From an uncultured Oscillospiraceae bacterium (GTDB lineage: Bacteria; Bacillota; Clostridia; Oscillospirales; Oscillospiraceae): a DNA stretch of 53,229 bases. Both the position numbers and the translations under genes were made by a program. The stretch is from assembly GCA_947626495.1 (NCBI GenBank), contig CANQSJ010000019.1:1-53229 (forward strand), in the 5' to 3' direction. The notes under the pieces are model-generated. The model had not been told where the DNA came from. It made no database searches and was given only the letters and a program-made list of their open reading frames with translations. Positions 25,547-53,042 of the stretch are shown here, piece after piece (the stretch's first letter is position 1; the number at the start of each line of letters is the position of its first letter).

Positions 25547-27070
25547 TCAGTTATACAGGGAAAGGGACATGAGGATGTCGTTCATTGTGGTCAGGGCTAT
25601 GTCATGGTACTCGTCGTAATCGTCGTGGCAACGGACTTCGATCCGCCAGTAGGTGCCGCCGATATCCGCGATCGCCACGGTGCTCGTGTAAGGTTCATAC
25701 CTCGAGGAGAGGGAAGAGGAAAGGTCCACGGTCCAGTAATCGAACCGGCCCCGGTGGAACTGACTGATCTGCGAGATATACTCGGCGTCGCGGACGGAGT
25801 CACTGTCAAAGTAGAGCTTGCGGCACACCTCGTCCAGGACCTGCTCCGGCGCATAATCGGAGCTGTAATCGGTCTTTTTCACGTCCGCACTGAAAAAAAA
25901 CGCGCCCGTTCCATCTTTCAGGAGTAAGATGCCGTTTTTACGATGTATCAGGTCGGACGTATCCAGGCGGTCGCCGGTGATGATGTACAGCTCTTTGTCG
26001 TATTGATAGCCCGTTTCCATGGTCCAGAGCTTATAGCCCGGGGCCGTGTAGGCGCCGGTGACGGCAAAGCTCTCCACTATATGGTCGATCTGCTCCCGGT
26101 AGAGATCCGCCTGGTCGGAGGCGTCGTTGATCAGCGTCTGGATGCAGTAGACGCCAAAGTCCCCCTGGCCGTCGTGGATATAGAGGCAGCCGCTGTAAGG
26201 CTGGCCGTTCTGGTCCAGGGAGAAGGTGAAGGCCGTGCCGGGCCAGTCCGTCACATCGCCCTGAAAGCCGGTGATCTCGGCCTGGTCGCTGCCCAGAAAG
26301 TCCGTGACCACGCTGTCGCCGATCTCGTCCCGCAGCTCCGAGAAATCGTCGGCGGAGTAGATGTAGGCGTCCCCGGCCACGGTGTGGTAGGCGTACTCCA
26401 CCGCTACCCGGAAGTCGCTGCCGTTTTCGATGAGCACCGTGTTCTCATAGGGCTCGGACACCGTACACCCCTCGGGATACTGGATGGAGAACATCACCGC
26501 GTCGTTGGTATAGAGCTCATATCCCCGCGCAGACCCGCTGCCGCCCTTTGGGATGAGGACCACGGCCACGATCACCGCCACTGCCAGCAGGATGCAGCCG
26601 GCCAGAATGCCCATGGTCTTGCCGCTCATGCCCTTTTTTGCGGGCGCAGCGGGCTTGACGGGTGCAACGGGTGCAACGGGCTCAGCAGGCGCAGCGGGCT
26701 CGACCGGCTCGGCGGGCTCGACAGGCGCAGCAGGCTCGGCGGGCTCAGCAGGCGCGGCAGGCTCAGCAGGCTCAGCAGGCGCAGCGGGCTCAACAGGTGC
26801 GACAGGTGCAGCGGGCTCGGCGGGCTCGACAGGCGCAGCAGGCTCGGCGGGCTCGGCGGGCTCGGCGGGCTCGACAGGTGCAACGGGCTCAACAGGTGCG
26901 ACAGGTGCAGCGGGCTCGACAGGCGCAGCAGGCTCGGCGGGTGTGACAGGCTCGACAGGCGCAGCGGGCTCGACGGGGTTTTCCTCCGCCGGGACGATGG
27001 GGGTGCCGCACTTGGTGCAGAACAGGGAATCGTCCGGCAGCCTGGCGCCGCAGCGACGGCAGAATTGCAT
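25547..27070 (-). CDS. Zinc-ribbon membrane protein with long Pro/Ala/Glu repeat (paralogue A)
   Basis: A 507-residue protein in four parts: an N-terminal zinc ribbon (CRRC at residues 4-7 and CTKC at 18-21); a low-complexity stretch of about 110 residues built from [10 protein letters not shown]-like units; one membrane helix ([19 protein letters not shown], about 150-170); and a C-terminal domain of about 330 residues that starts [18 protein letters not shown] and is probably extracellular. I cannot name the C-terminal domain; it loosely recalls PsbP/LpqN-like folds, which is a guess. AAGGAGG precedes the ATG. The gene next upstream is a close paralogue with a much shorter repeat. The repeat likely spans the cell wall. 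Confidence 0.85.
26641..26990 (-). repeat. Low-complexity repeat coding for Pro/Ala/Glu/Val units
   Basis: About 350 bases of imperfect short repeats (CGGGCTC, CAGGCGC and similar every 9-15 bases) encode PAEP and APVEP units in paralogue A. Such tracts change length by slippage. The equivalent tract in paralogue B (about 28246-28370) is roughly a third as long. Confidence 0.85.
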
Positions 27071-27110
27071 GGTGCTTCCTCCTTATCGTTATCTGTTTCT
27101 TATTCTATAC

Positions 27111-27160
27111 GGCGGCCTGGGCGTGCTGGCGGATGGCCTCGTGCAGCTTCTGCCGGTCCC
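27111..27160 (-). pseudogene. Fragment of a duplicated purB between the zinc-ribbon paralogues
   Basis: This 50-base stretch matches purB 28731-28780 at about 43 of 50 positions. On the minus strand it reads [17 protein letters not shown] and then a stop, against DRQELHEAIRRHSQAAAV in the intact PurB. It has no start and lies directly after the stop of paralogue B. It is a relic of the duplication that made the two zinc-ribbon genes. Confidence 0.75.
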
Positions 27161-27162
27161 GC

Positions 27163-28455
27163 TCACGTATCCAGAGTGAGGGACATGAGGATGTCGTTCA
27201 TTGTGGTCAGGGCTATGTCATGGTACTCGTCGAGGTAACGGACATCGATCCACCAGTAAGTGCCGCCGATATCCGCGATCGCAATGGTGCCCATGCGAGG
27301 GTCGTTCTCCGAGGAGAAGGTATAGGAAAGGTCCACGGTCCAGTAATCGAACCGGCCCCGGTGGAACTGACTGACCTGCGAGATACGCTCGACGTCTCTG
27401 ATGGAGTCATTGCGGGGGCATATCTCGTCCAGGACCTGTTCCGGCGGCGCATCATCGGAGCTGTAGTCGGTCTTTCGCACGTCCACGTAGAAATACCCCA
27501 GTCCTTCTCTGCCCAGTCCCTCTTGCTGGAATACGATGTTGTTTTCACCAATAAACATCGGCTCGGCCGTATCCAGGCCGTCGCCGGTGATCATGTACAG
27601 CTCTTTGTCGTATCGATAGCCCGTGTCCACAGTCCAGAGCTTATAGCCGGGGGCCGTATAGGCGCCGGTGACGGCAAAGCTCTTCACCATGTGGACGATC
27701 TGCTCCCGGTAGAGGTCCGCCTGGTCGGAGGCGTCGTTGATAAGCGTCTGGATGCAGTAGACGCCGAAGTCCCCCTGGCCGTCGTGGACATAGAGGCAGC
27801 CGCTGTAAGGCTGGCCGTTCTGGTCCAGGGAGAAGGTGAAGGCCGCGCCGGACCACCTCGCCACATCGCCCTGAAAGCCGGTGATCTCGGCCTGGCCACT
27901 GCCCAGAAAGTCCGTGACCACGCTGTCGCCGATCTCGTCCCGCAGCTCCGAAAAATCGTCGGCGGAGTAGATGTAGGCGTCTCCAGCCACGGTTTGGTAG
28001 GCGTACTCCACCGCCACCCGGAAGTCGCTGCCGTTCTCGATGAGCACCGTGTTCTCATAGGGCTCGGACACCGTACACCCCTCGGGATACTGGATGGAGA
28101 ACATCACCGCATCGTTGGTGTAGAGCTCATATCTCTGCGCAGACCCGCTGCCGCCCTTTGGGATGAGGGCCACGGCCGCGATCACCACCACAACCAGCAG
28201 GATGCAGCCGGCCAGGATGCCCAGGGTCTTGCCGCTCATGCCCTTTTTCGCGGGCCCGGCAGGCGCGGTGGGTGCAGCAGGCGCAGCAGGTTTGGTGGGC
28301 TCGACAGGTACGGCGGGCCCGGCAGGTACGGTGGGTGCAGCAGGCTCAACAAGTGCGGCGGGTTCCTCGTCCGCCGGGACGATGGGGGTGCCGCATTTGG
28401 TGCAGAACAGGGAATCGTCCGGCAGCCTGGCGCCGCAGCGACGGCAAAATTGCAT
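27163..28455 (-). CDS. Zinc-ribbon membrane protein (paralogue B, short repeat)
   Basis: A 430-residue paralogue of the next gene downstream, with the same four parts: zinc ribbon (CRRC, CTKC), a Pro/Ala/Val linker of only about 45 residues, one membrane helix ([19 protein letters not shown]) and the same C-terminal domain. From SGSA onward the two proteins are nearly identical for about 200 residues, then diverge in the last 130, especially around the YDKELY(I/M)ITGD region and after. It starts 51 bases after purB and shares the AAGGAGG leader with paralogue A. Function unknown; cell-envelope sensing or anchoring is plausible from the layout only. Confidence 0.85.
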
Positions 28456-44257: not shown

Positions 44258-45793
44258 CTATTTTGCCCGATCCGCTTTTTCCAGCTCGCCCATATAGGAG
44301 CGGGCGTCCTTGATGAAGCTGGCGATGATCAGTACGATCACGATGCCGATGGGGAAGGCGGCGATGATGGACACGGTCTGCAGGTTGTTCATGGACCCCT
44401 CGGAGAAGATCAGCGCGATGGGCAGCAGGATGAGCAGAATGGCCCAGAACAGCTTCATCCCCCGGCTGGCCTCCTCGCCCTCCCGGAACCGGCGGTAGCT
44501 GTACTGGCTGGCCACCAGGGTGATGGAGTCGAAGCTGGTGGCATAAAAGGCGATCATGCTCAGCACCAGCAGCACCAGCACGATCTGGTGGGCGGGCAGG
44601 TTGCCGATGATGGCGATGACTGTCTGGTACAGGTCGCCGCAGGCGTTATACAGCCCCACCGCGTCAAAGGCGCCCATCATCTGCAGCCCCAGGCCGTAGT
44701 TGCCCAGCACGATGAAGGAGACCAGGGTGCTGCTCACGCCGAAGACGTAGGTGCCCAGAATCACCTGCTTCACCGTCCGGCCCCGGCTGACGCTGCCCAT
44801 GAAGAAGGGGGACGCCACACACCACACCATCCAATAGGCCCAGTAGAAGATGGTCCAGTTCTGGGGGAAGGAGGAGGTGCGCAGCGCGTCGGTCCAGGTG
44901 CTCAGACCGATGAAATTCTGCACCATGTTCCCCAGCGCGGTGAAGCCGGTCTCGATGATATACCGGGCCTCGCCGCCGAACAGCAGCACATAGGCCAGCA
45001 GCGCCCCGAAAAGATACATGCAGGCGTTGGCCAGCCAGGACACCCCCTGGATGCCCTTCATCACCGCGAAGGTGTACACCAGGCAGGTGACCGTCAGGAT
45101 GGCGATGGTCAGGTATTTGGAGCTGGGGATGCCGATCAGACTGGTGAGGGCAGCACTGAGCAGGGGCGTGGCCACGGAGAAGGTGGTGGCGGTGCCCGCG
45201 ATCAGGGCCACCACCGCCAGCACGTCGATGACCCTGCCGGGCAGCCGGTCGGTCCTGTCCCCCAGCAGGGGGCGGCAGGCCTCGGAATACTTCTGCTTGT
45301 GCACGCCCCGCACATGGAGCATGAATCCGAAGCAGGCGGCCAGGGTGGCGTAAAAACTCCAGGGGATGGGGCCCCAGTGGAACAGCGTATAGGTGGAGGC
45401 CCAGTCCTGGATGGAGCCCATGTCCGCCACGTGGGGCTCCTGGGCGTAATAGATCCACTCGCACAGCGAGTAGAACAGGATGTCCGCCGCCAGACCGCAG
45501 GTGAACACCATGGCGCCCCAGGTCCAGAAGCCGTATTTGGGCTTCTCCCCGGGCTTGCCCAGGGTGATCTTCCCGATGGGGGAGAAGGCGATCCACAGGG
45601 ACACGGCGAGCACGCCCAGCCCGATGGCCAGATAATACGTGCCGAAACTGTCCCCCAGGAAGGACCGGATGGCGCTCAGCGCCGCGGTGGACCGCTCCGG
45701 GACCAGGATGAAGAACACGCACAGGATCAAAATGGCGCCGAAGGGCACCACGGTGGTGGCCGGATCCAGCCGGCGGCCGGTCTTCTTATCCAT
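44258..45793 (-). CDS. BCCT-family transporter (choline/betaine/carnitine type)
   Basis: Membrane transporter (511 aa, about 12 helices) of the betaine-choline-carnitine family, which imports quaternary amines by cation symport or exchange. Tryptophan-rich motifs typical of the family are HWGPIPWSFYA and FYWAYWMVWCVASPFFMG, followed by SRGRTVKQVI. The C-terminal tail is short, so osmotic gating as in BetP is unlikely. The ATG is 10 bases after AAGGAGG and directly follows the LicC-like gene stop, so it is the last gene of the choline operon. Choline as substrate is inferred from the neighbours. Confidence 0.9.
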   Translation of the reverse strand: MDKKTGRRLDPATTVVPFGAILILCVFFILVPERSTAALSAIRSFLGDSFGTYYLAIGLGVLAVSLWIAFSPIGKITLGKPGEKPKYGFWTWGAMVFTCGLAADILFYSLCEWIYYAQEPHVADMGSIQDWASTYTLFHWGPIPWSFYATLAACFGFMLHVRGVHKQKYSEACRPLLGDRTDRLPGRVIDVLAVVALIAGTATTFSVATPLLSAALTSLIGIPSSKYLTIAILTVTCLVYTFAVMKGIQGVSWLANACMYLFGALLAYVLLFGGEARYIIETGFTALGNMVQNFIGLSTWTDALRTSSFPQNWTIFYWAYWMVWCVASPFFMGSVSRGRTVKQVILGTYVFGVSSTLVSFIVLGNYGLGLQMMGAFDAVGLYNACGDLYQTVIAIIGNLPAHQIVLVLLVLSMIAFYATSFDSITLVASQYSYRRFREGEEASRGMKLFWAILLILLPIALIFSEGSMNNLQTVSIIAAFPIGIVIVLIIASFIKDARSYMGELEKADRAK

Positions 45794-45795
45794 CT

Positions 45796-46527
45796 TTACA
45801 TTCCCTCCTTCGGGGTGATATAGCCGGCGTAGCTGGGGTCGGCGGCCGCCAGCTCTGCCAGAGAGTCGATCTCCACCACGGCGTCCGCCGCCATGGGCCG
45901 CACGCCCAGCCGGTAGTCCTCCGGGCGGAGGAACAGGGCCACGTCGTCCCAGTAGAGGGACCAGTTTTTCTCCTCCTCCATGGCCTGTTCCAGATCGGCC
46001 GCCAGGCGGCGGCCGTCGTCCTCGGACCAGCGGGATACGCTGTAAAGCCGCCAGCCGCGCTCGCCGCCGGTCCGGCTGCAGGAACGGACCGTACCCTCCC
46101 CGTCCAGGGTCAGCAGCCACTCGTCGGTGTGACCGTCCGTCCACACGCAGTTGTAGCCGGAGCGCTCAAAGGAGGGGTCCAGCGCGGAGGCGTCGCGGAT
46201 CACCTGGTCCCCGTCCAGGACCATGGCCCCGGGCAGATAGGCCCGGGCCACATAGAGGGATGAGATGTTGTTGCGGGAGGCGTACCAGGGATTTTCGATG
46301 AGCCGCACCCCCGGCCAGCGCGCCGGCAGGGAGGCGAACTGCTCCTTTTTGTAGCCCACCACCACGGTCACGTCCCGGATGCCGTTGTCGGCCAGGGCCT
46401 GGAGGATGGTCTCGATCATCGGCCGGCCGTTCACCGGCAGCAGGGCCTTGTGAGTGGTATAAGTGAGCGGCCGCAGCCGCGTGCCCTCGCCGGCGGCCAT
46501 GATGATGGCCCGCTTGACCCGATTCAT
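45796..46527 (-). CDS. licC: LicC-like nucleotidyltransferase (CTP:phosphocholine cytidylyltransferase type)
   Basis: A 243-residue nucleotidyltransferase. The N-terminal signature IIMAAGEGTRLRPLT and the lysine in HKALLPV form the nucleotide site. The rest follows pneumococcal LicC closely in plan: VVVGYKKEQF, ENPWYASRNNISSLYVA, an Asp-rich VLDGDQV, TDEWLL, SLYWDDV and VEIDSLAEL. LicC makes CDP-choline for decoration of teichoic acids or glycans. The start overlaps the stop of the three-domain gene by 4 bases and the stop leads directly into the transporter gene. Confidence 0.82.
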   Translation of the reverse strand: MNRVKRAIIMAAGEGTRLRPLTYTTHKALLPVNGRPMIETILQALADNGIRDVTVVVGYKKEQFASLPARWPGVRLIENPWYASRNNISSLYVARAYLPGAMVLDGDQVIRDASALDPSFERSGYNCVWTDGHTDEWLLTLDGEGTVRSCSRTGGERGWRLYSVSRWSEDDGRRLAADLEQAMEEEKNWSLYWDDVALFLRPEDYRLGVRPMAADAVVEIDSLAELAAADPSYAGYITPKEGM

Positions 46528-48281
46528 AGCGCTCCTCCGATCCGTTCCGCCGCCAGGCGGTAATAGTCCTTGGCATAGCGGTACTGCCGCAGGGAATACT
46601 CCCCGAACTCCACGCCCAGCTGCCGCTTATACTCGCACCAGTCGCTCCACAGCAGCCCGCAGGCGGCCACGTAGCAGTAGATCTTGGTCCGGGTCTCCTC
46701 CGGGCAGCGGCCGGAGAAGTAGATGTCGATGAGCTGGTCCATCTGCCGCCGGTCGTATAAAGAATAGATGCCGAACATGGCCACGTCCACGTGGGGGTCC
46801 TGCATGGCGGCGTATTCCCAGTCGATCAGCTGCAGCTCCTCGCCGCCGCCCCGGGGGGCGAAGAGGAAGTTGTCCGGCACCGCGTCGATGTGGGTCAGCC
46901 GCTCCCGCTCCCCGTGGGCCTCGATGTAGGGCCGCAGGGAGAACACCCGCTCCCGGGTGAGATCGTGGTCCTTGTAGGCGGAGGGGGCGCCCTCCCACAG
47001 GGACTCGTAAAAACCGATGGTCCCGAAGATGTCGAACCGGTGGGGCACCGCCAGATCCATGGCATGGAAGGCGCGGAGCTTTTCCATGCACCGGGTCACG
47101 TCGGCCCGGTCCGCCGGATCGCACACCCGGACGCCCTCCAGATAGGCGGTGATCTTATAGCCGCTGTCCGGGTCCAGATACACCGGATCGTCGCACAGGC
47201 CCCGGCCCCGGATGGCGGCGTATACCGCCGCCTCCTGCTGCCGGTGGATGAGCCGGTTGGAGCCCTCCCCGGGCACCCGGGCGATGTACCGCCGGCCCCG
47301 GCAGGAAAACAAAAAAGAGCGGTTGGTCATGCCCTTTTTCAGCACCTCCACCTCCCGGATGTCCTCCGGCCGGGCGTTCAGGGCCTCCGCCGCGGCGGCG
47401 ATGGCCGCGGAGCGCAGATGGCTGGATGCGCCGTCCAGCTCCCGCAGCTGCTCGTAGGTGTTGATCTCCGCCACCCGTTCCGCCGGAACGGGCCGGGCGT
47501 ATACTGCCATCCGGCCCTTTTCGTAGAGGGTCTCCTCCCAGAAAGCGCCGTCGTACCGGGGGTCCCGGCCCATCTCCGCCAGACGCCGGCGCACCAGGGC
47601 CGCCTGGGGCTCCATGAGATAGCTGATGCCGATCATGGCGTTGCCCCCGGACCCCGCCGCGGCCGTCAGCTCCCCCTTCCGGTTCATCCGCACCGCGCTG
47701 GCCGGGTCCTGCCGGTCGCTGACCATATACCAGGAGTACAGCTCGTGCCGCCGGTAGGGGTTGTCCGCGCACCAGATGTCGCAGGGGACGATATAGGTGT
47801 TGTGCAGCCGGTCCGCGGCCAGCAGAAGGGAGTGGAGGTTGTTCTTCCCCGCGTAATCCGGGTTCACCACCAGCTCCACGCCGAATTTGTCGATGAGGTA
47901 TTCATACTGCTCCTTCATGAAGCCCACCACCACGGTCACGTGGCCGACGCCGGCCTGGCGCAGCTGGCGGATGGTCCGCTCGATCAGCGGCTCGCCGCCC
48001 ACCTCCAGCAGCCCCTTGGGCACCTCCATGTTGATGGGCACCATCCGCATCCCGCTGCCTGCCGCCAGGATCACGGCGTTTTGCGGCGCGCCGGCGGCCA
48101 GGGCGGTGCGGGACTTCTCCGTCAGGGCCATGTCCCCATCCAGCCAGCCGTCCCGGACCAGGGACTGGAGACACCGGTTCACCGTGCCGAGGCTGTGGCC
48201 GCACCGCTCCGCCAGCTGCCGCTGGGTGGCGAAGGGCTCCTCCGCAAGGGAGTTCAGAATATCACATTCCTGGATGTTCAT
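46524..48281 (-). CDS. Three-domain protein: winged helix + nucleotidyltransferase + choline-kinase-like (LicA type)
   Basis: A 585-residue fusion. Residues 1-60 are a winged helix (TQRQLAERCGHSLGTVNRCLQ). Residues about 67-285 are a LicC-type nucleotidyltransferase with VILAAGSGMRM, the lysine in VPKGLLEV (Lys89) and VVVGFMKEQYEYL. Residues about 295-585 are a LicA/aminoglycoside-kinase fold with catalytic HIDAVPDNFLF (His464, Asp466, Asn471) and LIDWEYA. Kinase plus cytidylyltransferase in one chain would carry choline to CDP-choline; a LicCA fusion is known in Treponema denticola. The stand-alone LicC downstream then looks redundant, so one of the two may use another substrate. The DNA-binding domain suggests self-regulation at the promoter repeat just upstream. 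Confidence 0.85.
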   Translation of the reverse strand: MNIQECDILNSLAEEPFATQRQLAERCGHSLGTVNRCLQSLVRDGWLDGDMALTEKSRTALAAGAPQNAVILAAGSGMRMVPINMEVPKGLLEVGGEPLIERTIRQLRQAGVGHVTVVVGFMKEQYEYLIDKFGVELVVNPDYAGKNNLHSLLLAADRLHNTYIVPCDIWCADNPYRRHELYSWYMVSDRQDPASAVRMNRKGELTAAAGSGGNAMIGISYLMEPQAALVRRRLAEMGRDPRYDGAFWEETLYEKGRMAVYARPVPAERVAEINTYEQLRELDGASSHLRSAAIAAAAEALNARPEDIREVEVLKKGMTNRSFLFSCRGRRYIARVPGEGSNRLIHRQQEAAVYAAIRGRGLCDDPVYLDPDSGYKITAYLEGVRVCDPADRADVTRCMEKLRAFHAMDLAVPHRFDIFGTIGFYESLWEGAPSAYKDHDLTRERVFSLRPYIEAHGERERLTHIDAVPDNFLFAPRGGGEELQLIDWEYAAMQDPHVDVAMFGIYSLYDRRQMDQLIDIYFSGRCPEETRTKIYCYVAACGLLWSDWCEYKRQLGVEFGEYSLRQYRYAKDYYRLAAERIGGAL

Positions 48282-48346
48282 ATACTTTAAAAATCCTCAT
48301 TTCGTGAACATAGGGACATTATAATCCTCTTTTTCGCCTGTGTCAA
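48274..48346 (-). promoter_or_regulatory. Promoter of the choline operon with candidate operator
   Basis: Minus-strand TTGACA (48346-48341), a 17-base spacer and TATAAT (48323-48318) match consensus fully. Downstream, ATGTTCA (48311-48305) and TGAACAT (48280-48274) form a 7-bp inverted repeat with 24 bases between arms, about three helical turns centre to centre. One arm lies at the predicted transcription start and the other includes the start codon. A repressor bound to both could form a loop; the winged helix of the encoded protein is the obvious candidate. Confidence 0.8.
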
Positions 48347-48355
48347 CCCCTGCCC

Positions 48356-48817
48356 TCAGGCCGTGCCCGCCAGAACGGCGGCCAGCAGGCCCCGGCAGCC
48401 CTCGTCCACGTCCCGCCAGGTGGCCGCGAAGTCCCCGGTGTACCAGGGGTCGGCCACGTCCCCAGGCCGGCGGGTATAGTCCAGCAGCAGGCGGATCTTC
48501 CCCGCCGGGTCACCGCCGCATATCCGGCGCATGTTGCGCAGATTGGCGCTGTCCATGCCGATGAGCAGATCGTACGCCTCATAGTCCCGCCGGGTCATCT
48601 GTCGGGCGGTCTTGCCGGCGCAGCCGATGCCGTGGGCGGCCAGCATCCGCCGGGCGGGGGGATAGACGCCGTTGCCGATCTCCTCGGTGCTGGTGGCGGC
48701 GGAGGCGATGGAGAAAGCATCCGCCAGACCCGCCTTTTCCACCAGGTCCTTCATCACAAACTCCGCCATGGGGCTGCGGCAGATGTTCCCATGGCAGACG
48801 AACAGTATTTTTACCAT
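48356..48817 (-). CDS. Low-molecular-weight protein-tyrosine phosphatase
   Basis: Cysteine phosphatase (153 aa). The active-site loop is CHGNICRSP (Cys8, Arg14) and the general-acid aspartate lies in ADPWYTGDF near the C-terminus. AAAGGAG precedes the ATG at 48817; the frame is open further upstream without homology. In many bacteria such enzymes regulate capsule or surface-polymer synthesis through tyrosine kinases, which would suit this neighbourhood, but no kinase is present here. The stop lies 10 bases before the -35 of the choline operon. Confidence 0.93.
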   Translation of the reverse strand: MVKILFVCHGNICRSPMAEFVMKDLVEKAGLADAFSIASAATSTEEIGNGVYPPARRMLAAHGIGCAGKTARQMTRRDYEAYDLLIGMDSANLRNMRRICGGDPAGKIRLLLDYTRRPGDVADPWYTGDFAATWRDVDEGCRGLLAAVLAGTA

Positions 48818-48950
48818 CGATCCGAACTCCTTTGCGCAATGAAAAGCAATCGGTTCTCCTCTGTGCGGAGAGGGCGGCGCCGCTGTCCGCTTTGGCCGGC
48901 GCCCGTTGAGGGACCCCGGACCGCCGATCCCGCTTGCGGGCATTTTTCCC

Positions 48951-48978
48951 TTGCAATTTATGGGAGGATCGCTATAAT
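48951..48978 (+). promoter_or_regulatory. Sigma-A promoter for the choline-binding-repeat gene
   Basis: TTGCAA (48951-48956), a 16-base spacer and TATAAT (48973-48978). The start codon is about 255 bases downstream, an unusually long leader. Just past the -10 lies the palindrome GTTATAAC (48986-48993). Confidence 0.7.
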
Positions 48979-49242
48979 GATATCGGTTATAACGATCAGA
49001 GCGGGCCGGGGGCGGCCTGTCCCGCGGCTCTGTGAAGGAGACGTCGGCTCCCGCGCGGCGGCGGACGCGCCCAGGCCTCATTATACCGGTCCCCTGTGGG
49101 ATGCGCAAGGGAAAACGGCCGTTTTTTCAGATGTGCTGTGATGCGGTGTGGGGCTTCGCCCGCGCCGCATTTGCGGTCCCGGGCCCCGGCCGGGGGCGGG
49201 CTGCCGCGTGAGCGGCGCAGAATGAGGAGGTACGAACATACG
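48979..49242 (+). other. Long structured 5' leader of the choline-binding-repeat gene
   Basis: No protein gene is seen here. Several strong hairpins can form: GAGC/GCTC arms around a GC-rich core (about 48998-49031); ATGCGG/CCGCAT with an inner GGGC/GCCC (49141-49169); and CCGC/GCGG just before the ribosome-binding site (about 49202-49216). A short palindrome followed by T6 (AAAACGGCCGTTTTTT, about 49111-49126) resembles a weak terminator. I could not match it to a known riboswitch class, including c-di-GMP-I, although parts are suggestive of attenuation. Confidence 0.4.
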
Positions 49243-50274
49243 ATGGGCAAGAAGATCCTGTCCCTGATCCTGGCGGCGCTGGCCGTCTTTGCCCTGAGCG
49301 CCCCGGCCTTTGCCGCCAACAGCGGCGAGACGGAGGACCCCGGTCCCGCCGGGGACGCGGAGGAGGGCACCTGGGAGCGGGAGAGCGGCCGCTGGTACTA
49401 TTACCGGGACGGCGAGCCGGTCCGATCCGACTGGGTCACCGACGACGGCCATACATATTATATGGATGAGAAGGGCGTCATGGCCACCGGCTGGCGGTCT
49501 GTCGACGGCGCGTGGTACCTCTTCGCGGAGAGCGGCGAGATGGTCTGCGGCGACTGGGTGCAGAACGACGGCGCGTGGTACTTTCTGGACGAGGAGGGGA
49601 AGATGCTGACGGGCCTCGCCGAGATCCGTCTGGACCGGGAGGCCGACGGCTGGTATTATTTCAGCGAGGATGACAACGCCGGCCGGATGGTCACGGGCTG
49701 GAAAAAACTGGACGGCGCATGGCACTACTTCAGCGAGAGCGACCCCGCCGGGCGGATGGTGGTCAACGACTGGGTGCAGGACGACGGCGCGTGGTACTTC
49801 CTGGATGAGGAGGGAAAGATGCTGACGGGCCTCGCCGAGATCCGTCTGGACCGGGAGGCCGACGGCTGGTATTACTTCAGCGAGGATGACAACGCCGGCC
49901 GGATGTTCACGGGCTGGAAAGAGATGGACGGCGCGTGGCACTACTTCAACGCGGGGGACCCCGCCGGCCGGATGGCGGTCAATGAGTGGGCGCAGGACGG
50001 CGGCGCGTGGTACTTCCTGGATGAGGAGGGGAAGCTGCTGGCGGGCCTGACGAAAATCGAGCTGGGCCGGAAGGGCGACGGCTGGTACCTGCTCAGCGAG
50101 GAGCACGACGGCGCCTACGGCCGTATGTTGACGGGCTGGCAGACCCTCGACGGAGCCCAATATTACTTTGACACCAACCTTGACGGCGACTATGGCCGGG
50201 CCTTCGCCAACGGCACATACGCCATCGACGGCAAGACCTATACCTTCGATACCGAGGGACGGCTGGTGGAGTGA
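49243..50274 (+). CDS. Secreted protein made of choline-binding repeats (cell-wall-binding repeat protein)
   Basis: A 343-residue exported protein. Residues 1-25 are a signal peptide (KKILSLILAALAVFALS, cleavage after AFA). After a short acidic spacer the whole protein consists of about a dozen 20-residue repeats of choline-binding/CW type, such as GWYYFSEDDNAGRMVTGWKK (each with the conserved GW, YYF and G-aromatic pattern). There is no catalytic domain, so it is purely a binding protein. Such repeats bind choline on teichoic acids in pneumococcus; related repeats bind glucan or other polymers in clostridia. GAGGAGG lies 12 bases before the ATG at 49243. Its position near choline activation genes supports choline binding. 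Confidence 0.88.
   Translation: MGKKILSLILAALAVFALSAPAFAANSGETEDPGPAGDAEEGTWERESGRWYYYRDGEPVRSDWVTDDGHTYYMDEKGVMATGWRSVDGAWYLFAESGEMVCGDWVQNDGAWYFLDEEGKMLTGLAEIRLDREADGWYYFSEDDNAGRMVTGWKKLDGAWHYFSESDPAGRMVVNDWVQDDGAWYFLDEEGKMLTGLAEIRLDREADGWYYFSEDDNAGRMFTGWKEMDGAWHYFNAGDPAGRMAVNEWAQDGGAWYFLDEEGKLLAGLTKIELGRKGDGWYLLSEEHDGAYGRMLTGWQTLDGAQYYFDTNLDGDYGRAFANGTYAIDGKTYTFDTEGRLVE
49551..49913 (+). repeat. 216-bp tandem duplication within the choline-binding-repeat gene
   Basis: The stretch beginning near 49551 recurs 216 bases later near 49767 and extends about 147 bases with very few differences, covering FLDEEGKMLTGLAEIRLDRE and what follows. This equals 72 codons, a supra-repeat of several choline-binding units, and points to recent expansion. 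Confidence 0.85.
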
Positions 50275-50288
50275 ACCGGCCGGATAGG

Positions 50289-50328
50289 GAAAGCAGGAGC
50301 GGACGAGAGGGCCGCTCCTGCTTTGTTT
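50289..50328 (+). terminator. Rho-independent terminator after the choline-binding-repeat gene
   Basis: AAAGCAGGAGCGG pairs with CCGCTCCTGCTTT around an 8-9-base loop, followed by GTTTTG. It also lies just past the stop of the convergent SGNH operon. Confidence 0.88.
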
Positions 50329-50341
50329 TGTTCCCGCGGGA

Positions 50342-51217
50342 TCAGCGGTATCCGTGAGTGCGGACGTACTTGAGGATGGCCTGCAGGCCCGTGGGCATCA
50401 GATGGATGCCGTCGCCGGAGTTGTAGTCGCTGATCAGATTGCCGGTGCTGTCCGCCAGCACCTCCCGGGTGTTCAGATACCGGACGCCGGTCTCCTCGGC
50501 CAGGTCGTAGATCCACTGGTTGGCGCTGTTGATGCGGTCGTTTTTGATGCCGTCGGGGGTCATGGAGTCGATGACGGGGTAGATGGATTGGCAGATGATC
50601 TTGGTGTCGGGGCTGTTCTGCTGGGCGGTAAGGATCAGATCCCGGTAATAGCTCTTGAAGGAGCTCTCGTCCAGCAGGGACACGCCGTTGAGGCCCAGGG
50701 TGATCACCAGATACTCCGGCTGGCGGGCCTTGATGGTGTCCGCGATGGACAGCTGGGACGAGTGCTCCGGGTCGTCCGGCGGGTAGTAATCAATGGTCTC
50801 CACCGACCAGTTGAACAGGCTCAGCGTGCCGCTGGCCGGGGTCCAGACCTGGGTGTGGGGCAGTACGCCGTAGGCGTAAAGGCCATAAGTGGTGCTGTCG
50901 CCCAGGAAGACGATCTTGTCCAGATAGTCCTGGCCCAGATCCTCGGTCTCGGCCAGCGTGGTGCTGACGGGGACGGACTCCGTGGGAGCGGGCGTGGCCT
51001 GGGAGGCATCCTGGCCCTCCGCGGCCGCGGGGTCCTGGCCCTCGCCGGGCTGCCCTTCGGCCTGCTGGCCCTCGGGGATGGGGGAGGACTGGGCCTCGGC
51101 GGTAGGGACGCCGTCCACCACGGACACATAGACCAGCACCGCCAGACACGCCGCCAGACACGCCAGCAGCGCCAGCGTCCACATGGTATAAAACCCCTCC
51201 CGGGTCTTTCGGTTCAT
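50342..51217 (-). CDS. Membrane-anchored SGNH/GDSL hydrolase, copy A
   Basis: A 291-residue protein: N-terminal membrane helix (about 12-35), a Gly/Gln/Pro-rich linker (about 40-88), then an SGNH domain. The nucleophile block is FLGDSTTYG (Ser108), block III is ITLGLNG, and the acid-base block is GDGIHLMPTG (Asp269, His272). Such extracytoplasmic enzymes usually remove acetyl or other ester groups from glycans or peptidoglycan. AAGGAGG precedes the ATG. Last of three tandem paralogues. Confidence 0.88.
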   Translation of the reverse strand: MNRKTREGFYTMWTLALLACLAACLAVLVYVSVVDGVPTAEAQSSPIPEGQQAEGQPGEGQDPAAAEGQDASQATPAPTESVPVSTTLAETEDLGQDYLDKIVFLGDSTTYGLYAYGVLPHTQVWTPASGTLSLFNWSVETIDYYPPDDPEHSSQLSIADTIKARQPEYLVITLGLNGVSLLDESSFKSYYRDLILTAQQNSPDTKIICQSIYPVIDSMTPDGIKNDRINSANQWIYDLAEETGVRYLNTREVLADSTGNLISDYNSGDGIHLMPTGLQAILKYVRTHGYR

Positions 51218-51248
51218 GTCGTACCTCCTTGGGGGAGCGGATCCGCCG

Positions 51249-52127
51249 TCATTGCCAGGCGTGGGTGCGGACGTACTGGAGGATGGCCTTCAGACCAACG
51301 GGCATCAGGTGGATGCCGTCGCCGGAGTTGTACTCGGCGATCAGGTTGCCGGTGCTGTCCATGAGGGCGTCGTGGGTATTCAGATAGCGCAGCCCCATCT
51401 CCTCGGCCAGGTCGTAGATCCACTGATTGGCGGTGTTGATGCCGTCGTTTTTGATGTCGGAGGTGGTCATGGAGTCGATGACGGGGTAGATGGACTGGAG
51501 GATGATCTTGGTGTCGGGGCTGGCCTCCTGGATGGAGACGATCATGTCCCGGTAATACTGCTTGAAGCCGGTCTCGTCCAGGAAGGCGATGCCGTTGAGG
51601 CCCAGGGTGATCACCAGATACTCCGGCTTGCCCTTGGCGGCGCAATCGGGGATGGACAGGATCTCCGGGTTCTCCCGGGTGCCGGGGGCGAAGTATTCGA
51701 TGGTCTCGATGGGCACGTTGAACAGCGCCAGCGTGCCGCTGGCCGGGGTCCAGACCTGGTATTCCGGCAGGACCTCATAATAGCGCATGCCGTAGGTGGT
51801 GCTGTCGCCCAAAAAGACGATCTTGTCGATGTACTCCTGGCCCGCGTCCGGCGTCTCCGCCAGGAGCGTGGCGGGGGCGGGGGTCTGTGTGGGAGCGGGC
51901 GTGGCCGGCTCCTCGGTGGCGGCGGCGGGTATGTTGCCGGATACGGGTTCCGAGGGCTCCGCCGTCTGGACGGGCGGCTGCTCTCCGGCCTCGCCGCCGG
52001 TCGGCTGCCCGGCGCGGCGCCCGCCCCATATAGACACATAGATCAGCACGATCAGCAGCACGATCATCAGCGCCAGCAGCGCGATCATCAGCGGGGGGAC
52101 GCCCCCGCGGCGGGATCTTCTGTTCAT
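51249..52127 (-). CDS. Membrane-anchored SGNH/GDSL hydrolase, copy B
   Basis: A 292-residue paralogue of its neighbours with membrane helix (about 12-33), a Pro/Ala/Thr linker (about 40-90) and an SGNH domain. FLGDSTTYG holds Ser109, ITLGLNG is block III, and GDGIHLMPVG gives Asp270 and His273. The domain is very similar to copy A, while the linkers share composition but not sequence. AGGAGG precedes the ATG, and only 31 bases separate it from copy A, so the two are co-transcribed. Confidence 0.88.
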   Translation of the reverse strand: MNRRSRRGGVPPLMIALLALMIVLLIVLIYVSIWGGRRAGQPTGGEAGEQPPVQTAEPSEPVSGNIPAAATEEPATPAPTQTPAPATLLAETPDAGQEYIDKIVFLGDSTTYGMRYYEVLPEYQVWTPASGTLALFNVPIETIEYFAPGTRENPEILSIPDCAAKGKPEYLVITLGLNGIAFLDETGFKQYYRDMIVSIQEASPDTKIILQSIYPVIDSMTTSDIKNDGINTANQWIYDLAEEMGLRYLNTHDALMDSTGNLIAEYNSGDGIHLMPVGLKAILQYVRTHAWQ

Positions 52128-52160
52128 TCTATAACCTCCTGAGGCGCTTGCCCGCGGCCG

Positions 52161-53042
52161 TCACAGCCAGGCGTGGGTCCGGATGAACTGCAGCAGGTCG
52201 TTGATGCCGTCGGTGTCCATGTGGATGCCCATGCCGTCGCCGTTGTCATACTCCGGGCGCAGATTGCCGGTCTCGTCCATGAGGGCGTCGTGGGAGTAGA
52301 GATACCGCACGCCCATCTGCTCCGCCATGTCCCGGATCCACACGTTGGCGGCGTTCACCTTCGCGTTGCTGATGCCGTTGGGCACCTGGCTGTCGTCCAC
52401 GGGGAAGATGGACTGGCAGATGATCTTGGTATCGGGGCTGGCCTCCTTGAGGGCCGCCAGCATATTCACGTAGTAGTCCCGGAACTCCTGCTCGTCCAGT
52501 AGCGCGATGCCGTTGAGGCCCAGGGTGATCACCAGGATCTCCGGCTGGCGCCGGGCCATGCAGTCCTTCAGGGGCAGCTGCACGGGGCTGTTGGGGCTGT
52601 CGGGGGCGTAATAGGCGATGGTGTCCGTCTCCCAGTTGAACAGGCTCAGCGTCCCGATGGCGTCGCACCAGACCTGGGTGAAGGGGATCACGCCGTACCC
52701 GGCGAACCAATAGGTGGTGCTGTCGCCCAAAAAGACGATCTTGTCGATGTACTCCTGGCCGGCGTCCGGCGTCTCGCCCAGCTCCACCGGCACGGGCGTG
52801 GGCTCCGGGGTGGGCTCGGCGGTGGGTTCCGGGGTGGGTTCCGCCGTGGGCTCGGCGGTGGGCTCCGCCGTGGCGGGCGCATAGGTGGGGGAGGACTCGA
52901 TGACGGGAGTGTCGGCAGGCGCATCCGCCGCGCGCATATAGCGGACCACCGCCCATGCCAGCAGCGCGCAGGCGATGGCGATGAGTACCAGCAGGATGAT
53001 GATGACGACCCGGAGCGGGGACCGCCGGTCTTGTGAGTCCAT
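52161..53042 (-). CDS. Membrane-anchored SGNH/GDSL hydrolase, copy C (variant active site)
   Basis: A 293-residue paralogue with an N-terminal membrane helix (about 12-35), a PTAEPTPEP-type linker (about 58-87) and an SGNH domain. Ser108 in FLGDSTTYW and ITLGLNG are present. The C-terminal block reads NGDGMGIHMDTDG where copies A and B have SGDGIHLMP, so two extra residues break the Asp-x-x-His spacing of the catalytic pair. It may use another acid or have shifted activity. GGGAGG precedes the ATG; it is the first gene of the trio. Confidence 0.86.
   Translation of the reverse strand: MDSQDRRSPLRVVIIILLVLIAIACALLAWAVVRYMRAADAPADTPVIESSPTYAPATAEPTAEPTAEPTPEPTAEPTPEPTPVPVELGETPDAGQEYIDKIVFLGDSTTYWFAGYGVIPFTQVWCDAIGTLSLFNWETDTIAYYAPDSPNSPVQLPLKDCMARRQPEILVITLGLNGIALLDEQEFRDYYVNMLAALKEASPDTKIICQSIFPVDDSQVPNGISNAKVNAANVWIRDMAEQMGVRYLYSHDALMDETGNLRPEYDNGDGMGIHMDTDGINDLLQFIRTHAWL

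Follow-up and report, generated by a model that had tools for sequence, protein, structure and literature searches.

The 53,229-nucleotide stretch of an uncultured Oscillospiraceae bacterium analysed here (contig CANQSJ010000019.1, positions 1-53,229, the whole of which we call the window) carries at 44258-48281, on the minus strand, a three-gene operon transcribed in the order fusion, stand-alone LicC (243 amino acids) and BCCT-family transporter (Table 1). The fusion joins a winged helix (Pfam HTH_24, residues 1-47), a nucleotidyltransferase fold (NTP_transf_3, 69-177) and a choline-kinase domain (APH, 311-531), and it matches structures of both LicA (PDB 4r77, E 4.7e-34) and LicC (1jyk, E 8.9e-27). 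Its gene shares 4 bases with that of LicC, the BCCT gene starts 2 bases after LicC, and a promoter-like TTGACA-N17-TATAAT ends 36 bases before the fusion start codon.

We propose, as the probable account, an operon that supplies phosphocholine through Lic-type enzymes and carries its own switch, namely a self-repressing choline kinase whose nucleotidyltransferase domain has turned sensor. The proposal draws on domain order, kept and lost residues, the promoter-like sequence, a conserved box and co-occurrence across genomes, all of which are read from sequence. The BCCT protein would import choline, the kinase domain at the C-terminal end of the fusion would phosphorylate it, and the stand-alone LicC would convert phosphocholine to cytidine diphosphate (CDP)-choline; a LicD encoded elsewhere would then put phosphocholine onto a surface glycan, on which the choline-binding-repeat proteins of the genome would dock. 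The winged helix would bind its own promoter and start codon at TGTTCAYGAA-type sites and repress the operon, while the central nucleotidyltransferase-fold domain, no longer a cytidylyltransferase, would sense a pathway nucleotide (CDP-choline or cytidine triphosphate, CTP); enzyme activities, repression, ligand sensing and the surface phosphocholine product are thus predictions.

An earlier sequence-only reading had treated this operon, the repeat gene and the hydrolase genes as a single locus. Gene calling and profile matches recovered all the genes that it named, together with a low-molecular-weight (LMW) phosphatase gene missing from its list. The genes stand; the single unit does not, as the operon has its own promoter-like sequence, the repeat gene is read from the other strand and a tandem of their own is formed by the SGNH genes. 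The repeat protein has a signal-peptide-like start and, besides choline-binding repeats, no other domain was found in it.

Table 1 Features of the operon and its surroundings in the window.
Feature	Coordinates	Strand	Evidence
BCCT-family transporter, probable choline importer	44258..45793	-	PF02028 E 1.4e-124
Stand-alone LicC, probable CTP:phosphocholine cytidylyltransferase	45796..46527	-	PDB 1jyk E 5e-32
Winged-helix / nucleotidyltransferase-fold / LicA choline-kinase fusion, 585 amino acids; proposed autorepressor-kinase	46524..48281	-	
Second half-site TGAACAT overlapping the start codon	48274..48280	-	Inverted repeat of 48305-48311
Proposed operator TGTTCACGAAA, immediately following the -10 hexamer	48300..48310	-	Recurrence in orthologues
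Sigma-70-type promoter-like TTGACA-N17-TATAAT of the operon	48318..48346	-	12/12 consensus positions
LMW protein-tyrosine phosphatase, neighbour, membership doubtful	48356..48817	-	PF01451 E 2.9e-34
Secreted choline-binding-repeat protein	49243..50274	+	PF19127 E 4.4e-38, PF01473 E 4.1e-35
Three tandem membrane-anchored SGNH/GDSL hydrolases, judged outside the system	50342-51217, 51249-52127, 52161-53042	-	PF13472

The two nucleotidyltransferase units differ in their active-site residues

The kinase pocket of the fusion keeps seven of the eight residues (T29, D176, V178, Y197, W251, W254 and Y268; the eighth is E213) listed as choline contacts of pneumococcal LicA in excerpts of PMC4364537. 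The sequence-only reading had also taken both nucleotidyltransferase units at face value, and here the comparison with pneumococcal LicC separates them. Stand-alone LicC has the same residue at 11 of 17 active-site-region positions (D105, D107, E135, W136, S163, W165, Y190, W191, D192, E216 and D218), including metal ligands and the aromatic box. We take W136 and Y190 to be the residues of this box, which the passages on LicC available to us mention without residue numbers. The fusion domain keeps 5 of the 17, with the W136 loop deleted and Asn at position 218; P105, the missing loop, E192 and N218 are common to the window and 14 close orthologues (L047-L050, L086-L095). With most of the LicC active-site positions lost, the domain is better read as a sensor within a regulator-kinase.

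The 2-aminoethylphosphonate cytidylyltransferases (PntC) share the LicC-like fold, and the accessible part of PMC6697681 gives Glu at the positions equivalent to LicC D105 and D192 for Treponema denticola PntC. The window LicC has Asp at both positions and so lacks the Glu/Glu signature; the fusion domain has Pro and Glu. Glu at both 105 and 192 does occur in a winged-helix LicC-like protein without a kinase (L104:2380-8446), whose neighbours are an APC-like permease, a phosphoenolpyruvate mutase, a thiamine pyrophosphate enzyme and a class V aminotransferase; this is likely a 2-aminoethylphosphonate activation locus.

A scan of named genomes supplied 79 loci, from the best 80 of 467 relatives (11 of the 79 were not classable, and L120 and L127 duplicate the DNA of L047 and L092 in the close set). 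Fusions without W136 were called class I and those keeping it class II, and a LicC was counted as separate if it lay within 7 kb and itself kept D107 and W136. W136 is retained in none of the 35 informative fusions with a separate LicC and in 26 of the 34 without one (Fisher 2.6e-12), a pattern most of which forms one clade on the kinase tree, with a second case in Actinomycetota (L176 and L197, with L198 as sister). These rows, plus the window, were left after L130 (unalignable), L146 (duplicate) and the hit of L198 at 11667 (false) had been dropped before tree building; among the 72 scored rows before this removal, the counts were 0/37 and 26/35. It is the W136 loop and position 218 that distinguish the domain of the window and its 14 close orthologues from fusions standing without LicC. 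Both W136 and a separate LicC are missing in eight cases (L128, L143, L147, L152, L155, L188, L191 and L198), among them L147, where the contig end truncates a LicC that was left out of the count, and L188, which lies on a short contig. In a scan of viral contigs, most matches were partial and to the nucleotidyltransferase.

The altered residues are themselves conserved in the close orthologues (P105, D107, W191, E192, E216 and N218), so the domain is under constraint, and some relatives add a second licC-licA pair (L088-L090). Both observations would suit two working cytidylyltransferases, the fusion domain acting on another phospho-alcohol (e.g. phosphoethanolamine) and two head groups being displayed. 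We consider this alternative unlikely: of the 37 scored fusions with a separate LicC, 33 have Asn at position 218 and most have lost the W136 loop, L152 lacks D107 and E216 as well, and the window operon has a single kinase domain. The operon most likely makes CDP-choline by its LicC and not by the fusion, and we read the separate LicC as having freed the fused domain for another task.

A conserved box at the promoter is a candidate operator

Of 10 genus orthologues, 9 show by eye a similar promoter pair at the corresponding position. The box just downstream of it, TGTTCACGAAA, occurs without mismatch in 11 of 15 close orthologues, counting the window, and the -35/-10 spacer varies in length. 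Upstream of the W136-less rows it recurs at up to two mismatches in 26 of 35 regions (1.0 expected) and at up to one mismatch in 16 of 35 (0.1 expected), with expectations from first-order Markov resamples and L120 and L127 again shared with the close set. The second half-site, TGAACAT, is 100% complementary over 7 nt to 48305-48311, with 24 nt between the arms. Related arrangements were seen by eye elsewhere: the start codon lies inside a GTTCATGAAC palindrome in L121, L128, L133 and L135, and Hungatella-group fusions have TGTTCA and TTGAAC arms after a TATAAT-like sequence. In the winged helix, S30, L31, G32, V34 and N35 are invariant (14/14). These conserved promoter-proximal boxes make the site, judged from sequence, a candidate operator for self-repression.

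The window genome holds four exact TGTTCAYGAAA sites, against one for a reversed-pattern control. We discarded a genome-wide box regulon, given that the three other exact sites look coding or chance by eye; regulation therefore appears local.

In L051 and L053, a GntR-type module replaces the N-terminal part ahead of the same kinase (TrkA_C was seen in L051), a swap to be expected if the N-terminal part is a regulatory module. These loci (L051:8373-11479, L053:6874-9962) encode GntR-LicA and then BCCT, with no LicC seen next door, and may represent a regulator-kinase built in a second way.

Choline-binding repeats co-occur with the fusion

The pairing with choline-binding repeats, which the sequence-only reading drew from one locus, holds at the level of genomes, and in some relatives the genes are physically linked. 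A full-length fusion (at least 64% identity) is present in 11 of 35 genus genomes, and all 11 have at least 12 PF19127 matches and at least one LicD. At least 10 repeat matches were found in 11/11 fusion genomes versus 9/24 others (Fisher p 0.0005), any match in 11/11 versus 15/24 (p 0.03) and LicD in 11/11 versus 13/24 (p 0.007), these and the following p-values treating genomes as independent. Among the 13 genus genomes at least 90% complete, at least 10 matches occur in 5/5 with the fusion versus 0/8 others. Across 150 family genomes, at least 8 matches are seen in 5/6 with the fusion (at least 36% identity) versus 0/144 others, or in 5/8 versus 0/142 (p 9e-8) when the 31% variants of G033 and G124 are included, the cut-offs of 8 and 10 having been picked after the counts were seen; any match is found in 5/6 versus 13/144 (p 8e-5). 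The repeats thus co-occur with the fusion across the family.

In the Hungatella/Lacrimispora group, a same-strand repeat gene follows the fusion match by ~0.2-1.5 kb in 8 of 8 loci (L158, L160, L161, L164, L168-L170 and L193), and in two family genomes it follows the BCCT gene (L048, L054). The ten genus loci read (~4-12 kb a side) have neither a repeat nor an SGNH gene near the fusion.

Might the repeats bind some other ligand and owe their co-occurrence with the fusion to shared ancestry? The genus genomes are related to one another and the counts were made without a species tree; PF19127 has no match in G084, which has the fusion, or in G079 (the genome of the GntR-type locus L051), G063 and G010, which have LicA relatives with no winged-helix fusion seen. 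The placement of the repeat gene after the fusion in all eight Hungatella/Lacrimispora loci and the association across genera speak against this explanation, to which we give a rather small probability.

The window genome itself has 12 other repeat-bearing frames, and of the 4 scanned, three are BspA-type leucine-rich-repeat (LRR) proteins and one has a transglutaminase core. On contig C41 of this genome, large secreted choline-binding-repeat proteins stand in tandem (L113:5833-13300), and the two of the three that were scanned are both of the BspA-type LRR kind.

Transporter and gene order in relatives

Counted within the fetched stretches (flanks of up to 10 kb, frequently truncated where a contig stops), the 37 class I loci include BCCT in 31, a LicB-like EamA-family permease in 2, LicD in 10 and choline-binding repeats in 9; for the 25 class II loci the numbers are 3, 13, 7 and 12, respectively. 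The combination had been described as an unrecognised one, a claim that we find half right, as fusion, LicC and BCCT together are common in Bacillota. The fusion variant is widespread in that phylum and was also seen in Actinomycetota and spirochaetes. Two licD genes lie 5.4 and 6.5 kb before the fusion in G167, and G161 has a licD-licC-licA-EamA run.

In the window operon, a BCCT protein takes the place of a LicB-type choline permease. It scores 411.8 bits, above the TIGR00842 subfamily cut-off (407.55) and below the cut-off of every equivalog model listed; its relatives in the PDB are DddT (a high-affinity choline transporter), CaiT and BetP. BCCT proteins are commonly betaine or carnitine carriers, and with the window protein under all listed equivalog cut-offs it might serve osmoprotectant uptake and share the operon incidentally. 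We regard this as very unlikely in view of the BCCT gene in 31 of 37 class I loci and the LicB-like EamA permease in two others. Homology and pocket residues support the earlier claim of choline capture and activation, and the operon probably imports choline and activates it for surface attachment.

Other arrangements were met along the way. In L088:7989-12473, L089:7012-11485 and L090:9013-13543, a second licC-licA pair and a LicB-like EamA-family permease follow the fusion and replace LicC and BCCT, which suggests two amino-alcohol substrates or a replacement in progress. A polysaccharide cluster (L065:5810-10363) brings together LicD-like, ornithine-cyclodeaminase-like and winged-helix LicC-like proteins with an APC-like permease. 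YidC/Oxa1-type domains fused to CDP-glycerol glycerophosphotransferase-like or sulfatase-like domains adjoin licA/licC-type genes in relatives, as recognized by Pfam (L055:10026-11993, L057:9389-11491, L060:9410-13286) or by similarity (L058:10474-12585, L101:14169-16070, L103, L105:2636-4510, L131, L140). They are often accompanied by a DPGTGS-starting Glyphos_transf protein and possibly belong to another phosphocholine or glycopolymer transferase system.

LicD is encoded on another contig

The LicD-type transferase that was missing from the locus exists elsewhere in the window genome. A single LicD (E 5.5e-38) is encoded on contig C14 beside a polysaccharide flippase, in a polysaccharide cluster that also holds GT2 and ATP-grasp genes. 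A YidC/Glyphos_transf transferase was considered as a stand-in for LicD and set aside, since PF04464 has no match in the window genome.

The genome, a draft 89.8% complete, contains only two CDP-alcohol transferases (PF01066), one over the PgsA cut-off and the other PssA-like (78.3 bits versus a cut-off of 107), its gene adjoining a phosphatidylserine-decarboxylase-like gene; within this 89.8% no choline phosphotransferase of the family was found. That CDP-choline feeds membrane phosphatidylcholine and not a surface glycan, as the LicA/LicC chemistry common to both routes would allow and as is reported for T. denticola in the accessible part of PMC7368946, is therefore hardly credible, with only PgsA and a PssA-like protein recovered from the 89.8% complete draft and with LicD and many choline-binding proteins present.

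Observations that weigh against the proposal

Several observations count against the self-repressing, sensing choline kinase proposed here. The loss of W136 alongside a separate LicC represents few independent events on the tree, and informative pairs number 0 versus 1-3 (mean 2.2), which is not significant; none ever runs in the opposite direction. The fusion domain keeps D107, E216 and the invariant G75, R79 and K89, and it may still turn over another substrate. At up to two mismatches the box is missing in 9 of 35 class I regions and occurs in only 2 of 23 class II regions (0.4 expected) and in 0 of 5 others.

Others concern the substrate. LicA E213 is Tyr in the fusion kinase, and stand-alone LicC departs from the pneumococcal enzyme at 6 of 17 positions (109, 128, 129, 134, 164 and 193), R129 included. 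In L100, the LicC-type protein beside licA and licD has S105/E192, so that Asp at 105 and 192 is only a hint and does not by itself fix the substrate. BCCT proteins also transport betaine and carnitine.

At the genome level, nine genus genomes have at least 10 repeat matches and no full-length fusion, and LicD does not track the fusion in the family (2/6 versus 19/144, p 0.2). G084 (100% complete) has the whole cassette with no LicD and no repeats, and G008 (98%) has fusion and repeats with no LicD. The choice of repeat cut-offs after counting and the draft state of the window genome belong here as well.

Neighbouring genes judged outside the system

The three SGNH genes, earlier counted as members of the unit, belong to a tandem family. 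Of 35 genus genomes, 28 have at least one relative and 26 have 2-5 copies, including genomes without repeats and without LicD (G157, G169 and G176). None of the 68 classified relative loci has an SGNH match; in other fusion genomes the SGNH genes lie on another contig or, on a shared contig, 28 kb off (G174), and a repeat gene within 6 kb of the SGNH cluster was found in 1 of 8 SGNH loci read (L256). On the grounds of distribution and missing linkage we rejected them as phosphocholine trimmers.

Of the 10 genus orthologue loci, 7 have the LMW phosphatase, 80-89% identical, beside the fusion; in the wider class I set it was found in 1 of 37 loci. A relative (71-74%) also lies ~2 kb from an SGNH tandem, independent of the fusion, in L259:4184-9252 (G169) and L260:5245-10289 (G167), as it does in the window. 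We left it as a neighbour and not an operon member, given its position upstream of the promoter, its rarity in class I loci and its place near SGNH genes in L259 and L260. Farther away in the window, two adjacent similar proteins of 358-360 amino acids (25547-28239) begin with what looks like a membrane anchor; Pfam gave no match for the one that was scanned.

Relation to known systems and meaning

The operon resembles Lic-1 (licABCD) of pneumococcus and Haemophilus in its choline kinase, LicC and LicD relatives, importer and choline-binding proteins, and differs in that a winged helix and an altered nucleotidyltransferase domain precede the kinase within one protein, BCCT stands for LicB and LicD lies on another contig. 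We therefore read it as a variant of the Lic pathway in which the chemistry appears ordinary and the regulator-kinase unusual. LicCA of T. denticola, which we take to be a LicC-LicA fusion, likewise unites LicC- and LicA-type activities in one pathway. Its product goes to phosphatidylcholine, according to the portion of PMC7368946 at hand.

A DNA-binding, nucleotidyltransferase and kinase order is also that of NadR, for which excerpts of PMC12421817 describe ligand sensing via the central domain. NadR of Enterobacterales (helix-turn-helix, nicotinamide mononucleotide adenylyltransferase, ribosylnicotinamide kinase) has the same domain order as the fusion and serves a salvage pathway too. It belongs to another pathway and to other enzyme families, and we regard the likeness as analogy, not kinship. 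Among the matches listed in our literature searches (only the top-ranked ones in several of them), no paper dealt with the fusion or with a gut-clostridial phosphocholine operon, and the available main text of a survey (PMC10434233) has no occurrence of Clostridi, Firmicutes, BCCT or fusion.

We further put forward, tentatively and as a nearly even call, a broader statement: the fusion would be both metabolite-sensing autorepressor and pathway kinase, its LicC-type domain, freed by a separate LicC, having become a CDP-choline or CTP sensor, and bacteria of several phyla would in this way set surface phosphocholine and the docking of repeat proteins.

Phosphocholine displayed by bacteria mimics the host and anchors surface proteins, and most work on it has concerned respiratory species. 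That many gut Oscillospiraceae and Lachnospiraceae have the operon, with its conserved box and its link to choline-binding proteins, suggests that commensals of the gut decorate themselves in the same manner and adjust this to the supply of choline or nucleotide. A simple, testable model would also follow from the proposed regulator-kinase, in which an enzyme domain turns into a sensor after a second gene has assumed its catalysis. If this is true, one protein and one promoter-proximal operator would set both the phosphocholine supply and the docking of choline-binding proteins.

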